From NCBI GenBank assembly GCA_027451445.1, contig DAIDJG010000074.1, positions 1 to 64,000 on the forward strand: a stretch of DNA of 64,000 nucleotides, written 5' to 3'. The translations under genes were made by a program, and so were the position numbers. How positions within the stretch are numbered: position 1 is the stretch's first letter; each line of letters opens with the position of its first letter. Shown one piece after another: positions 39,541 to 45,036 of this stretch. This stretch comes from Singulisphaera sp. GTDB taxonomy: Bacteria > Planctomycetota > Planctomycetia > Isosphaerales > Isosphaeraceae. The notes under the pieces were generated by a model, which was given only the letters and a program-made list of their open reading frames with translations, searched no databases and was not told the DNA's origin.

Positions 39541-39910
39541 TCACGACGTATCCGAAAGAGGCTCCCCGCGCCGGTCGGGCGCTACGGCGGCGCCGCCTCC
39601 TGGAACCGCCAAGACCGGGCGCACGCCCGTGGTCGCGGGCGAAAACGACTCCGAAATATCCGAGAAATCCGAGATAGGCTCCTCACGCCGGACGGCCGCG
39701 GCAGCCTTTTCACCATTTTGAACCGCGAGTCGCGTGCCCGTGGTCCCGGGCGAAAACGGCTCCGAAATATCCGAGAAATCCGAGATAGGCTCCTCACGCC
39801 GGTCGGTCACCGCGGCCACATCAGTGTTTTGACGGTCCCTTGACGGTCCCAGGCCCGTTGAGGCACTCGAAAACGGCTCCGAAATATCCGAGAAATCCGA
39901 GATAGGCTCC
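39541..39910 (-). repeat. C-terminal codon repeats of the DUF3987 protein
   Basis: The sequence CTCCGAAATATCCGAG recurs at 39649, 39760 and 39877, that is 111 and 117 bp apart. Both spacings are multiples of three, so the peptide ISDFSDISE is preserved in frame. A truncated, diverged copy (RRGEPLSDTS) forms the C-terminus. Confidence 0.85.
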
Positions 39911-41697
39911 CGGCGCCGCTCGGTCGTCGCGGCGTCTCCACCTTTTTGACCCACCAGCGCCGGGTGCACGTCATAGATCGGGCTGTGCTTCCGGCCGGCG
40001 CTCCCGGCCGGGCGTGGCGCGTCCGCCCGGCGCCGGATGGCATGATAGGCTTCGAGCGCCTCGAGCGCCGACTCAGGCTCGTCCGGCCTCGCGCGGAGCC
40101 AGCGCAGAGCGTCGGTCAGCTCGCTGACCGAAAAGTGCGTCCGCCCTGTCCGCCGGATCCAGTCGACGATCGCCCCGGCCACCGGCTCGCGCGTCCCTCC
40201 CCCGATCTCCCAGCGCACGCGACGCTGCTGCGCGCGGAAGTACGACCACAGCCGCAAACCCTTGCGTAACGACTCGACCCCCAGCGGCGGCAACGGATCG
40301 CCCGGTTTGCGCGCGCGGTCGAACGCGACGTCCAGCAAATGAACGATCAGCGCCAACCGCGCGGTGATGTCCCGGAGCTGGCACTCGGCCGCGCGCTGCA
40401 ACGGGTCGCAGCCGGGCGCATTGAACTCATCGGTGCGCGCGTTGTACCAGGCAACCCACGCCGCCTTGGCGTCCTCCGTGAACGCGATGAGCTCGCACCG
40501 GAGCCCGTCGCCGGGCGGCCCCGCCGGTTGGTGCAGCCTGAGCCATTTCAGCGCGGCAAACCAGGCGTCGGTCGTTGCTTTGGGGACGCTTTCGTCCGAC
40601 CAGTACGCCGTGGGAACGGGGTCCGGCAGCACGACGAGCATGTGATCGAGCAGCTCGCTTCCCCGCGACCCGCCGAGACGCCCTCGCCCCGGGCCTCGGC
40701 CGAACTGGCCGAGCACCTCGGGCGCCACGCTGCCACAGAACGACAGCAACGGCGTCTTTCTCGCCCCGCCGGGCACGCCGCGGAGGGCATGGTGCCAGAG
40801 GTCGGCGGACGGCTCTCCCTCACGCTTCCGCGGAGCGCTCAGGTCCGAGAGCCACGTCGTCGCGTCTTCGCGCGCGACCAGCAGCCCGCGCCCAGGGTTA
40901 TCGAGCCAGCGGACGAGATCCTGCTCGGTCGCAACCGGCACCCCACCGAGCTCGCGGAGTGCCTGGATCGCCGCATACATGGCCCGCGAGCCGCCGTCGG
41001 ACGGCTCGCCCACGTTCAGCGCGTGCAGCGTTCCGTACACACAGTGGCCCGGCTTCATCGCGAGCGCCGCGTTCCCGCCGATCGCCGCCCCGGCCGCGAC
41101 GAGCGCGGGGACCGCCGCGGAGTCGACCGGCGCACCCGCATCGCGGGCCACCGCGGCGACGAATTCCGCCACCGTGTCCGGCAGCACGTCGAGCGGGAAC
41201 GGCTCAACCAGCGGCCGCTCTCCCAGCCGCAACGGCGGCCACTCGTCTTGCACCTCTTCCGGTTCGACCCGCGGCACCTGCCCGCGCAGGTTCGCCTGCG
41301 CCTCCATCAGCAGCACCTGCGAGCCCAGCCCGATGGTCCGCTGCCGCCTTACGTACTCCCCAAGGTCGCGCGTCGGCGCGTGCTGCGGCGACTCGCGCGG
41401 CACCAGCACACCCACCCGTCGGACCGCGCCCGCCAGCGCCTCGGCGTCGCGCTTGGCTTGCTCCGGGTTCGCCTTTGGACCGTGGACGATCACGGCAACA
41501 TCGCGTCGCGCCAGGAGCCCGAGTGTTTCTCCGTCCCAAGCGCTCGGCCTCGCCAGCGCCAGCAATCCCCAGCCCCGCAGCGCCTCCGCGCCTCCCGCGT
41601 CAGCCGTGACGAACACCACCTCGGACGACCGCCGCTCCAGCTCTTCGGCAAATTCTTTGTGCCCTGCCTGCGCGTCCAACACCCTCACCGGCGACAT
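39541..41697 (-). CDS. DUF3987-type protein with repetitive ISDFSDISE tail
   Basis: 718 residues from the ATG at 41697; a TTG six codons upstream also opens the frame. Residues ~1-120 look like a TOPRIM/mobile-primase-like N-terminal domain (VVFVTADAGGAEALRGWGLL, VAVIVHGPKANPEQ). The central part matches DUF3987, a primase-helicase-associated family found in plasmid, phage and planctomycete proteins, with AAGAAIGGNAALAMKPG, NVGEPSDGGSRAMYAAIQAL and TPLLSFCGSVAPEVL. The C-terminal ~130 residues are low-complexity repeats of EEPISDFSDISEPFSP, three full copies and a degraded fourth at the stop. A classical P-loop is not evident; NVGEPSDGGSRA sits where one is expected, so ATPase activity is doubtful. 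It stands alone, next to mobile-element debris, which suits an accessory origin. Confidence 0.8.
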   Translation of the reverse strand: MSPVRVLDAQAGHKEFAEELERRSSEVVFVTADAGGAEALRGWGLLALARPSAWDGETLGLLARRDVAVIVHGPKANPEQAKRDAEALAGAVRRVGVLVPRESPQHAPTRDLGEYVRRQRTIGLGSQVLLMEAQANLRGQVPRVEPEEVQDEWPPLRLGERPLVEPFPLDVLPDTVAEFVAAVARDAGAPVDSAAVPALVAAGAAIGGNAALAMKPGHCVYGTLHALNVGEPSDGGSRAMYAAIQALRELGGVPVATEQDLVRWLDNPGRGLLVAREDATTWLSDLSAPRKREGEPSADLWHHALRGVPGGARKTPLLSFCGSVAPEVLGQFGRGPGRGRLGGSRGSELLDHMLVVLPDPVPTAYWSDESVPKATTDAWFAALKWLRLHQPAGPPGDGLRCELIAFTEDAKAAWVAWYNARTDEFNAPGCDPLQRAAECQLRDITARLALIVHLLDVAFDRARKPGDPLPPLGVESLRKGLRLWSYFRAQQRRVRWEIGGGTREPVAGAIVDWIRRTGRTHFSVSELTDALRWLRARPDEPESALEALEAYHAIRRRADAPRPAGSAGRKHSPIYDVHPALVGQKGGDAATTERRREPISDFSDISEPFSSASTGLGPSRDRQNTDVAAVTDRREEPISDFSDISEPFSPGTTGTRLAVQNGEKAAAAVRREEPISDFSDISESFSPATTGVRPVLAVPGGGAAVAPDRRGEPLSDTS

Positions 41698-42657: not shown

Positions 42658-43314
42658 ATGAAGGTCTTCAGAGAATTGTCCATCCGCGGCGAGCCCTCAT
42701 CGCTCGATGCCGCTGCGGAAGAAATCTGCCAGTCTCTTTCAGATGGCTGGAGTCGCGAAACTGATGCCGAAAGCCGAATTCGGGCGGATTCGCTGGGCGA
42801 TCATCGGAGAATCTATTGTTTCGCATGCACAACGGATGGCAGACGACAAGCCGCTCTGGTTTTTCTCTTCGGAGGAGAGCCCGATCTTCTGACCGTGGGG
42901 AACATCGTCCCTCGCGACAAGCACATGCTTACATACGAGGAATACAACTTCATTGCGGAGGAATTCTTTCGGCGGTTTGTCGAGCCAGCAGCACGAAAGC
43001 ATGGGGTGACGGCGGAGTTGACAGAGCCGCAGGTAGGTTTGGATCACTGGTTGCCTCCGCATGCCGTCGAGAAGCTGCGCCTGTTCAGTAGTTTTGCAAA
43101 CAAGTCAACCGGTTCGGCCCATCCGATGGATCGCGAGCGGTGGTATGACTTCATCATGGCGGTACACGAAGCCGACTCGGATTTCGACGCCTCAACATTG
43201 GCGAGATGGCTGACCGAGGAAGCGGGTTGGAGTGCCGAGAGGTCAGAGGAACTTGCCATCGAATACGAATTCGCCCGCGGCCTCCTCGCACACGGTGAGA
43301 GGGTTGGGAGTTGA
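42658..43314 (+). CDS. Conserved-looking protein of unknown function, first gene of PIN-linked operon
   Basis: 218 residues, no signal peptide or membrane segment, so cytoplasmic. A strong ribosome binding site (AAGGAG, 8 bases before ATG) supports the start. Visible features are an N-terminal alpha/beta part (MKVFRELSIRGEP; IYCFACTTDGRRQAALVFLF), a helical middle (YEEYNFIAEEFFRRFVEPAA), a segment with FANKSTGSAHPMDRERWYDF, and a C-terminal helix pair (LARWLTEEAGWSAERSEELA, EYEFARGLLAHGE). No named family was recognised. Its stop lies 2 bases before the ATG of the PIN-like gene, so the two are translationally coupled. That layout fits a toxin-antitoxin or defence module with this protein as regulator, antitoxin or sensor, which is inference only. 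The flanks are mobile or accessory DNA. Confidence 0.8.
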   Translation: MKVFRELSIRGEPSSLDAAAEEICQSLSDGWSRETDAESRIRADSLGDHRRIYCFACTTDGRRQAALVFLFGGEPDLLTVGNIVPRDKHMLTYEEYNFIAEEFFRRFVEPAARKHGVTAELTEPQVGLDHWLPPHAVEKLRLFSSFANKSTGSAHPMDRERWYDFIMAVHEADSDFDASTLARWLTEEAGWSAERSEELAIEYEFARGLLAHGERVGS

Positions 43315-43316
43315 GC

Positions 43317-44012
43317 ATGAGTATCGCCGACGCCGCTACTCAGGTGTCGGCGAGCGGGATGCCGGTGCTGTTCTTGGACACGTGCAGCATCCTGGACGTG
43401 ATCCGTGCTCCCGCGCGCGGTCTTGTTCGGTGCGTAGAGTCCGCGACTGAACTGCTCGAACTAGCGACGGCTTCCCGATGCAATTTCGTCGTTGGGTCGT
43501 TCGTTCCAGGGGAATGGAACGACCACCAGCAAGAAGTCCTCGATCTGGTCACCACCCACCTGGACAAGATGCAGGCGCAGGCAGCACACTTTCATGATCT
43601 CTGCAGTCACCTGAACTTGCCTATCACCTTCGCCCATCCGGAGTATCCAAGCAGTGGCCTCGCTGCTCAGCTCCATGCCCTGTCAGCGAATTTGCTCGCT
43701 GCTTCACTTGTCTTGGACAGGGCGAATGACACGATGGCAAGGGCATATGAACGCGTAGCCGTAACTCGACGTCGGCCTTGTCGAAAAGGCGGTGAATTGA
43801 AGGATTGCACGATTTTTGAAGAATGCCTGGAGGTTTGTCGGCAGGCAAGAGGAAATGGGTTCACGAGGAAACTGGTATTCTGCACATCAAACACGGATGA
43901 TTATTGTGCCCCGGGAGTGACTCCGCACTTGGACGTTGCGACCGATTGTGCGGCTGTCGGGCTCATTTTTACGACGAATCTTCCTTGGGCTTTAAGCGAA
44001 ATCAAGACATAG
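43317..44012 (+). CDS. PIN-like nuclease domain protein, second gene of operon
   Basis: 231 residues from the ATG at 43317; a TTG two codons upstream overlaps the previous stop. The N-terminus MPVLFLDTCSILDVIR is the classic first strand and metal-binding Asp of PIN ribonuclease domains. VVGSFVPGEWND gives a conserved acidic position, GGELKDCTIFEECLEVC a further Asp in the KDC context of the larger PIN-like (DUF4935-type) families, and LVFCTSNTDDYC a C-terminal strand with Asp residues. The four acidic clusters fit an Mg-dependent RNase fold. At 231 residues it is longer than simple VapC toxins (~130). Target unknown. Coupling to the upstream gene suggests they act together. Family assignment is by motif, without an alignment. 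Confidence 0.75.
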   Translation: MSIADAATQVSASGMPVLFLDTCSILDVIRAPARGLVRCVESATELLELATASRCNFVVGSFVPGEWNDHQQEVLDLVTTHLDKMQAQAAHFHDLCSHLNLPITFAHPEYPSSGLAAQLHALSANLLAASLVLDRANDTMARAYERVAVTRRRPCRKGGELKDCTIFEECLEVCRQARGNGFTRKLVFCTSNTDDYCAPGVTPHLDVATDCAAVGLIFTTNLPWALSEIKT

Positions 44013-44181
44013 ATTCTGGGAATGATCATGGCTCAGTTGCGTCGGACGATAGCGTGCTTAGACGCCCTTCGGCACGCGGCCGGGGAATACGAGTGGCAAC
44101 CCAGAAGAACCTGGCCAGGAGAAGAACCTGGCCAAGGCGCTGGGCGCTGGGGTCAGATACCATGAAGGAGGATAGCAGAGA

Positions 44182-44257
44182 GTGAGTCGCTGAAGGTAAG
44201 CTGAATATGTGGCTATCAGCATCCCTTTGGAGGGACATTCCCATGTCAGCGACTCAC
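44182..44257. repeat. Inverted repeat around the start of the IS110 transposase fragment
   Basis: GTGAGTCGCTGA (44182-44193) and TCAGCGACTCAC (44246-44257) are perfect 12-base inverted copies. They flank the ribosome binding site and start codon of the transposase fragment. The region may belong to the left end of the insertion sequence. Confidence 0.6.
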
Positions 44258-44685
44258 GACGGCCATTCTACCACAGCGACCAGACTCGTACTCTACCTGG
44301 CCTTGGAGCTGGGCCGGAACTCCTGGGAGCTGGCCTTCACCACAGGAGCCGCGCAGAAACCCCGGCTCCGCTCGCTGGCCGCCGGTAACTATGTCGAACT
44401 CCTCCTCGAGATCAAGAAGGCCAAGGAGCGGTTCGGCCTGCCGCCGGACGCCCCGGTGATCTCCTGTTACGAAGCCGGCCGGGACGGCTTCTGGCTCCAT
44501 CGCTTTCTGATCCATGAGGGGAGCGATAACCGAGTCGTCGACTCGGCATCGATCGAAGTCAATCGCCGCAAGCGTCGCGCCAAATCCCCCCGGCTGGACG
44601 CGACCAAGCTGGTCTCGATGCTCATCCGCTCGCACCAGGGCGAAGAGCACGTCTGGGCGGTGGTCCGCATTCCCACGCGGCCGGA
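44243..44685 (+). pseudogene. Truncated IS110-family transposase (N-terminal RuvC-like part only)
   Basis: ATG at 44243 with GGAGGG 8 bases upstream. The ~148 homologous residues match the N-terminal DEDD domain of IS110-family enzymes: LYLALELGRNSWELAF with the first acidic position, YEAGRDGFWLHRFLIHEG, VVDSASIEVNRRKRRAKSPR with LDATKLVSMLIR and VWAVVRIPT. After this the frame enters simple GCGGGGGTCAG-type sequence and the 316 bp palindromic element. The central part and the C-terminal serine-containing domain are missing, so the enzyme cannot be active. The frame stays open to 44947 but that tail is repeat-derived. IS110 elements recombine through a bridge RNA encoded near the left end; the upstream 44110-44242 region could be the relic of one. 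Confidence 0.85.
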
Positions 44686-44720: not shown

Positions 44721-45036
44721 CTAGAGCGCCGAACGGTTGGATTGCGCACGGGGTTCGGCAGGTCAAGGCGACCCGAGCCGCCCACCAGGCGTGCTGTCTT
44801 CATCGTGGTTTTGAATGGTCGACGGAGGCCGCAGGCTTTGGAGTGCGGTGGCTTGCTACCGCTTTCGAGCCACAAGGGCCGTTCGAAAGCGGTAGCAAGC
44901 CACCGCACTCCAAGGAGCCCTGTCGGGCTCGAAACACCGCAACGTAAACCGCGCTTCATCCGAGCTGACTTGGCTTCGCGCACCGGATGCGATCCGGCAC
45001 ACCGCTTGTGCGCAATCCAAACGTTGGGCGCTCTAG
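44721..45036. repeat. 316 bp MITE-like element with 29 bp terminal inverted repeats
   Basis: The left end CTAGAGCGCCGAACGGTTGG continues with ATTGCGCAC. The right end (45008-45036) is its reverse complement, with about three mismatches. Inside is a perfect 31 bp palindrome at 44838-44913. No reading frame of its own. It directly follows the point where IS110 transposase homology stops. Confidence 0.8.
44838..44913. repeat. Perfect 31 bp palindrome
   Basis: Arms TTGGAGTGCGGTGGCTTGCT(…)CGA and the exact reverse complement are separated by a 14-base loop. A diverged copy occurs at 41974-42118. Confidence 0.85.

Follow-up and report, generated by a model that had tools for sequence, protein, structure and literature searches.

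Two adjacent genes in a 64,000-nucleotide stretch of Singulisphaera DNA (the window) encode a protein that we assign by sequence to the PIN_12 nuclease family and, directly upstream of it, a partner protein that has so far escaped cataloguing. The pair is patchily distributed, horizontally mobile and co-inherited, and it probably represents an undescribed toxin-antitoxin or phage-defence module. What is new is the partner family; the PIN effector and the two-gene arrangement are of known kinds. If this interpretation is right, an uncatalogued family whose two-domain structure is modelled with confidence joins the PIN-nuclease conflict systems, and the little-studied PIN_12 family gains a concrete biological setting. 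The features of the locus are as follows.

42658 to 43314, plus strand: partner gene (ORF1), 218 amino acids, ATG at 42658, TGA at 43312-43314
43317 to 44012, plus strand: putative PIN_12 nuclease gene (ORF2), 231 amino acids, ATG at 43317, TAG at 44012
43312 to 43319, plus strand: gene junction, made up of the partner TGA, 2 bases and the ATG of the PIN gene

These coordinates bear out the layout proposed by the sequence-only reading, namely 218- and 231-residue proteins encoded with 2 bases from stop to start. The ribosome binding sites that it described can also be recognised by eye, as Shine-Dalgarno-like sequences 5' of both starts (AAGGAG before 42658 and GGGAG before 43317). The G+C content of the ORF1-ORF2 region is 0.56-0.59 as against 0.60-0.74 over most of the surrounding 14 kb, a difference compatible with acquired DNA. 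The proposed setting between a DUF3987 protein and IS debris agrees with what we found: the upstream gene, on the opposite strand, contains DUF3987 (PF13148, E = 1.4e-16), and downstream, the stretch at 44150-44677 recurs once each on contigs C360 and C162 of this genome, at 96-97% identity, consistent with IS debris or an IS-like fragment. Upstream of the pair, neither a sigma-70-like promoter nor an operator-like inverted repeat was found. Chance ORFs were ruled out by homologues and conserved pairing, both proteins having relatives, about 25-45% identical, in numerous phyla with gene order and spacing kept; the window's own genome has another, more distant version of the pair on contig C138.

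Two further repeats lie in the vicinity. Positions 39625-39933 of the DUF3987 gene (minus strand) hold an in-frame tandem repeat of 111 bases (37 codons) in 2.7 copies, and the C-terminal end of the encoded protein is composed of repeats of EPISDFSDISEPFS. At 44807-44940 lies a short palindromic sequence that has dozens of dispersed copies on both strands of the same genome, where a 951-base query returned 104 matches, most of them to this part; judged by sequence, it is a REP- or MITE-like family.

ORF2 had been called merely PIN-like. Its PIN fold and acidic residues agree with that description, to which a family can now be added. ORF2 itself matched Pfam PIN_12 (PF16289) over residues 18-195 (model 1-171/172) with 22.3 bits, below the cut-off of 32 (E = 1.9e-4). 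Because PIN_12 matched all 17 of the 17 aligned PIN relatives (alignment A9; best 3.8e-16) and two relatives from E. coli exceeded the cut-off with 42.6 and 47.0 bits, we place the whole subfamily in PIN_12. A literature search on DUF4935 and PF16289 found no functional work. The two motifs first pointed out in ORF2, LFLDTCSILDVIR and KDCTIFEECL, are both present.

The AlphaFold2 model of ORF2 (pLDDT 94.3, pTM 0.90) is predicted to adopt a PIN fold. When Foldseek candidates were realigned to it, the top-ranked chains were nearly all PIN or VapC proteins, with Z up to 10.5 and an rmsd of 3.1 over 140 residues in the best alignments. Residues D21, E66 and D163 are invariant or nearly so across the PIN alignment, and D195 is conserved in most rows, with D or E in the others. 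All four are candidate catalytic acids, placed where the acidic site of a PIN protein would lie, and from the fold they would be expected to cluster in space. The PIN active site, for which structure prediction had been suggested, is consistent with a model that aligns best to VapC/PIN proteins and in which the acidic residues are kept. From the fold and acidic site seen in sequence and model, we infer that ORF2 cleaves RNA in a metal-dependent manner.

PIN domains also occur in RNA maturation enzymes, and the model alignments include HARP and PRORP, as might be expected if ORF2 were a housekeeping RNA processing or decay enzyme and ORF1 its cofactor. Such a role is hard to reconcile with patchy presence, with location on plasmids, prophages and integrative elements, or with the broken copies described below, and we regard it as very improbable. 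Of the original proposal of a toxin-antitoxin, RNA-decay or anti-phage module, what stands is a distinct two-gene unit built on a PIN protein, whose partner is uncatalogued and whose pairing is conserved, in a mobile and defence-associated setting. Neither of the two outcomes named in advance as refuting the proposal, a match of the first protein to a known family or a lack of conserved pairing, was observed.

For ORF1, the initial verdict of no recognised family proved correct in Pfam, NCBIfam, PHROGs and PADLOC, none of which yielded a match. Its 22 relatives gave scattered single family hits only, with no consistency among them, and none of these 22 partners matched an antitoxin in Pfam, NCBIfam or PADLOC. 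Sequence searches of the PDB found nothing. The protein is acidic (pI about 5.0), and its model (pLDDT 94.4, pTM 0.77) comprises an N-terminal alpha/beta domain (about residues 1-125) followed by a C-terminal helical domain (about 130-218; helices 134-217). Conservation is strongest in the C-terminal half, which includes the family motif FSxxANKSTGxxHPxDxxRWxxF, located in the helical domain, and a final WLxxxGW...LL region; even the most divergent planctomycete partners still matched the C-terminal half of the profile. One member (L009, 473-1495) is longer at its N-terminus by about 100 residues, for which the other members have no counterpart.

Foldseek against the PDB returned nothing for ORF1 at E <= 0.001. 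A known fold for the N-terminal domain was considered and rejected, as VIA-align gave Z values only up to 7.2 and to unrelated proteins; the rows comprised the spermine synthase N-domain, KA1, TBP-like proteins and the RnlA NRD, and these likenesses may reflect only a common arrangement. ORF1 also aligned with the BFVD phage protein A0A345MLQ5 over 87 columns (rmsd 2.7, probability 1.00, E = 5.6e-3). A tblastn search of phages with the partner and C-domain consensus gave no significant match, so that this likeness was not traced.

Pairing of the two genes is conserved across genomes. About 30 non-redundant loci with both genes intact were collected from Planctomycetes, Verrucomicrobia, Alpha-, Beta- and Gammaproteobacteria, among them E. 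coli and two Sinorhizobium plasmids. Within the planctomycete order, a PIN homologue occurs in 11 of 45 genomes, and the partner gene lies directly upstream at each locus; every close PIN homologue found in PIN-first searches had its partner in this position. The pair is present in 1 of 294 genomes sampled across the phylum, that one being the window's own, and in 3 of 299 Sphingomonadaceae genomes, one of which was the centre of the sample while the other two were new and both paired. Samples of two proteobacterial classes contained no pairs beyond those already known. A scan of 84,980 species genomes recovered 22 loci, although, as it used the partner pattern, PIN-only loci outside the sampled clades may have been missed. 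These loci belong to Verrucomicrobia, Proteobacteria, Eremiobacterota, a Treponema MAG, a candidate phylum and Planctomycetes, and a PIN gene, intact or damaged, follows the partner at 18 of the 22.

In relatives, the stop-start spacing ranges from about -20 to +14 bases, often with a 4-base overlap, which suggests translational coupling. Distance matrices of the partner and PIN proteins from 26 pairs correlated with r = 0.71, a value reached in none of 5000 permutations.

The accessory and defence context originally suspected fits the mobile setting of the pair and the defence-type genes that lie immediately beside or near it in relatives. They include SAVED, AAA and SMODS genes, a type III restriction-modification (R-M) operon with RhuM, MmeI and a protein kinase, HipA, AbiEi/AbiEii, a DUF4062 protein and AAA/PLD genes. 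On S. meliloti pRRI128_3, a CD-NTase/ThiF/JAB/SAVED operon (type II CBASS) lies upstream, with the pair beginning about 160 bases after it, and CBASS-type genes are found near the Sphingobium copy. Such proximity would suit an accessory effector dedicated to a neighbouring system, for example type II CBASS, and placed under second-messenger control. However, CD-NTase linkage is not obligate: it was seen in Sinorhizobium and, nearby, in Sphingobium, and at no other examined locus. Most copies have no CBASS genes close by, and none occur among the ORFs surrounding the window copy. The neighbourhoods are too varied for a dedicated CBASS effector, an idea to which we give hardly any credence.

In the planctomycete order, which was searched both PIN-first and partner-first, a broken PIN gene accompanies an intact partner at four loci (L009, L011, L013/L016 and L067), whereas a broken partner beside an intact PIN gene occurs at none; at L008 neither gene is intact, and L064 is cut short by the end of its contig. 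Outside the order, the PIN gene is broken and the partner intact at L031 and L039, the PIN gene is absent and the partner present at L017, L023, L028 and L041, and in a remnant from Bradyrhizobium (L040) the partner is broken and the PIN gene missing. A broken PIN gene beside an intact partner thus outnumbers the reverse, although the counts are small, some frameshifts may be sequencing errors, and six of the cases outside the order came from partner-first searches, which are blind to PIN-only loci. As read from these sequences, the pattern suggests that the partner on its own is useful or does no harm and that the PIN gene is costly.

Lone partners were encountered on a plasmid of Fischerella, among the structural genes of a Pseudoalteromonas prophage, within a type III R-M operon of Treponema and in an Eremiobacterota MAG, and several of them keep the family residues. 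No PIN protein of this PIN_12 subfamily was found elsewhere in the genomes or records of L017, L023, L028, L040 and L041. Partners carried by a plasmid, a prophage or an R-M operon might serve as portable antidotes, acting in counter-defence or against addiction by neutralising PIN_12 nucleases encoded on other elements. We consider this unlikely; if true, it would constitute a new antitoxin family in mobile-element conflict, and the prophage and plasmid copies offer a test of antidote-based counter-defence. The lone partner of L041 (7508-8128) overlaps the RhuM stop and lies between RhuM and a methyltransferase gene of the type III R-M operon; L028 is also found as a viral contig, with phage-like genes, identified by eye, downstream of the lone partner.

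The Pseudoalteromonas pair, used as a blastn query, pointed to a pair in E. coli, where the locus is present in 9 of 5,426 genomes. Both genes are intact in the alleles EC01 and E7476. Comparison of these two gave dN/dS of about 0.23 for the partner (dN 0.053, dS 0.231) and about 0.15 for the PIN gene (dN 0.047, dS 0.324); both proteins are therefore constrained by purifying selection, and their function is directly testable in E. coli. Four genomes share a G-to-T change that creates a stop at partner codon 83; the rest of the locus is identical to E7476, with PIN intact. In three records of the E2348/69 lineage, a deletion took out the partner and the start codon of the PIN gene. These alleles have lost the partner but retained an intact or nearly intact PIN ORF, so persistence of the PIN gene does not strictly depend on its partner. 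The E. coli copies (L070-L076) adjoin RepL and H-NS-like genes and probably sit in integrative elements.

The same alleles bring the pair close to DS-5, a system reported from E. coli with DefensePredictor, in which a PIN nuclease and a DUF5830/AcrIF4-like protein provide anti-phage defence; when the second gene is removed, protection is lost but no toxicity follows, and DS-5 was reported not to be a toxin-antitoxin system (PMC13092281). Like DS-5, our pair combines a PIN nuclease with a two-domain partner. Unlike that of DS-5, the partner lacks a DUF5830 match, since hmmscan detected none either for the E. coli protein (E up to 10) or among the 22 aligned relatives (E up to 1). On this comparison of domain description and hmmscan we do not class the pair as DS-5, although it may yet prove to be the same system. 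AcrIF4 is not among the structural matches listed for the partner, which may nonetheless resemble it.

The pair might be a co-dependent anti-phage system in which the partner, as a sensor or adaptor, recruits or activates an otherwise inactive PIN protein upon infection, both being needed. A partner modelled as a folded two-domain protein, E. coli alleles that retain the PIN ORF after partner loss, the absence of unrestrained toxicity when DS-5 loses its second gene along with its defence (PMC13092281), and the CBASS, R-M and AbiE genes among the neighbours would all accord with co-dependence. Yet several partners persist with no PIN gene in their genome or record, which is unexpected for an adaptor deprived of its effector, and in the planctomycete order it is the PIN gene that breaks first (4 versus 0). 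We view co-dependence as a serious contender that falls short of an even chance.

Best supported overall is a nuclease effector under the control of its co-translated partner. The form of this that we prefer, about evenly poised in our judgement, is the proposal that the pair is a mobile, toxin-antitoxin-like conflict module whose partner inhibits the PIN_12 ribonuclease. ORF1 would be made first, in translational coupling with ORF2, and would hold the PIN protein inactive by binding it, probably with the helical C-terminal domain, the better conserved of its two. If the partner were disturbed, as by an infecting phage, the nuclease would be set free to cleave RNA of the host or the phage and so arrest growth. 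The toxin-antitoxin-like proposal draws on the PIN fold with its acidic residues, the upstream and closely coupled partner, the correlated distances, the patchy distribution, the lone partners, the PIN-first breakage and the defence-type neighbours. Loss asymmetry was given less weight here because the E. coli alleles run the opposite way. Against inhibition by ORF1 speak its two well-folded domains, unlike small type II antitoxins, its lack of a recognisable DNA-binding motif, the lack of an operator-like repeat upstream, the E. coli alleles that have lost the partner, and the DS-5 precedent.

The organisation resembles VapBC in that a PIN-fold nuclease is the second gene of a tightly coupled, mobile two-gene operon and the gene in the antitoxin position comes first. 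In contrast to VapC-type proteins of about 130 residues, the PIN protein here has about 230 residues with extra helices and belongs with PIN_12; the partner, of about 210-220 residues, is fully folded and has no recognised DNA-binding domain or antitoxin-family match. Membership in VapBC was rejected, as the 22 partners contain no VapB-type domain (RHH, AbrB, Phd or HTH), in keeping with the earlier impression that the partner is unlike VapB and free of a DNA-binding motif. Makarova et al. (2009) described PIN-associated antitoxins of the DUF433/COG2442, COG2886, DUF104/COG2880, DUF217/COG1753 and MerR-like groups (PMC2701414). These too are putative antitoxins adjoining PIN genes (PMC2701414), but they are DNA-binding types (HTH, AbrB, RHH), DUF433 having only about 70-80 residues, and our partner matches none of the corresponding Pfam families.

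A different arrangement was seen in Pseudoalteromonas, where L050 (1498-2502) and L053 encode a distinct and longer PIN_12-like protein of 334 residues. Its gene lies directly downstream of one for a 319-residue protein that resembles DUF2971 by eye, and the two are possibly another PIN two-gene module.
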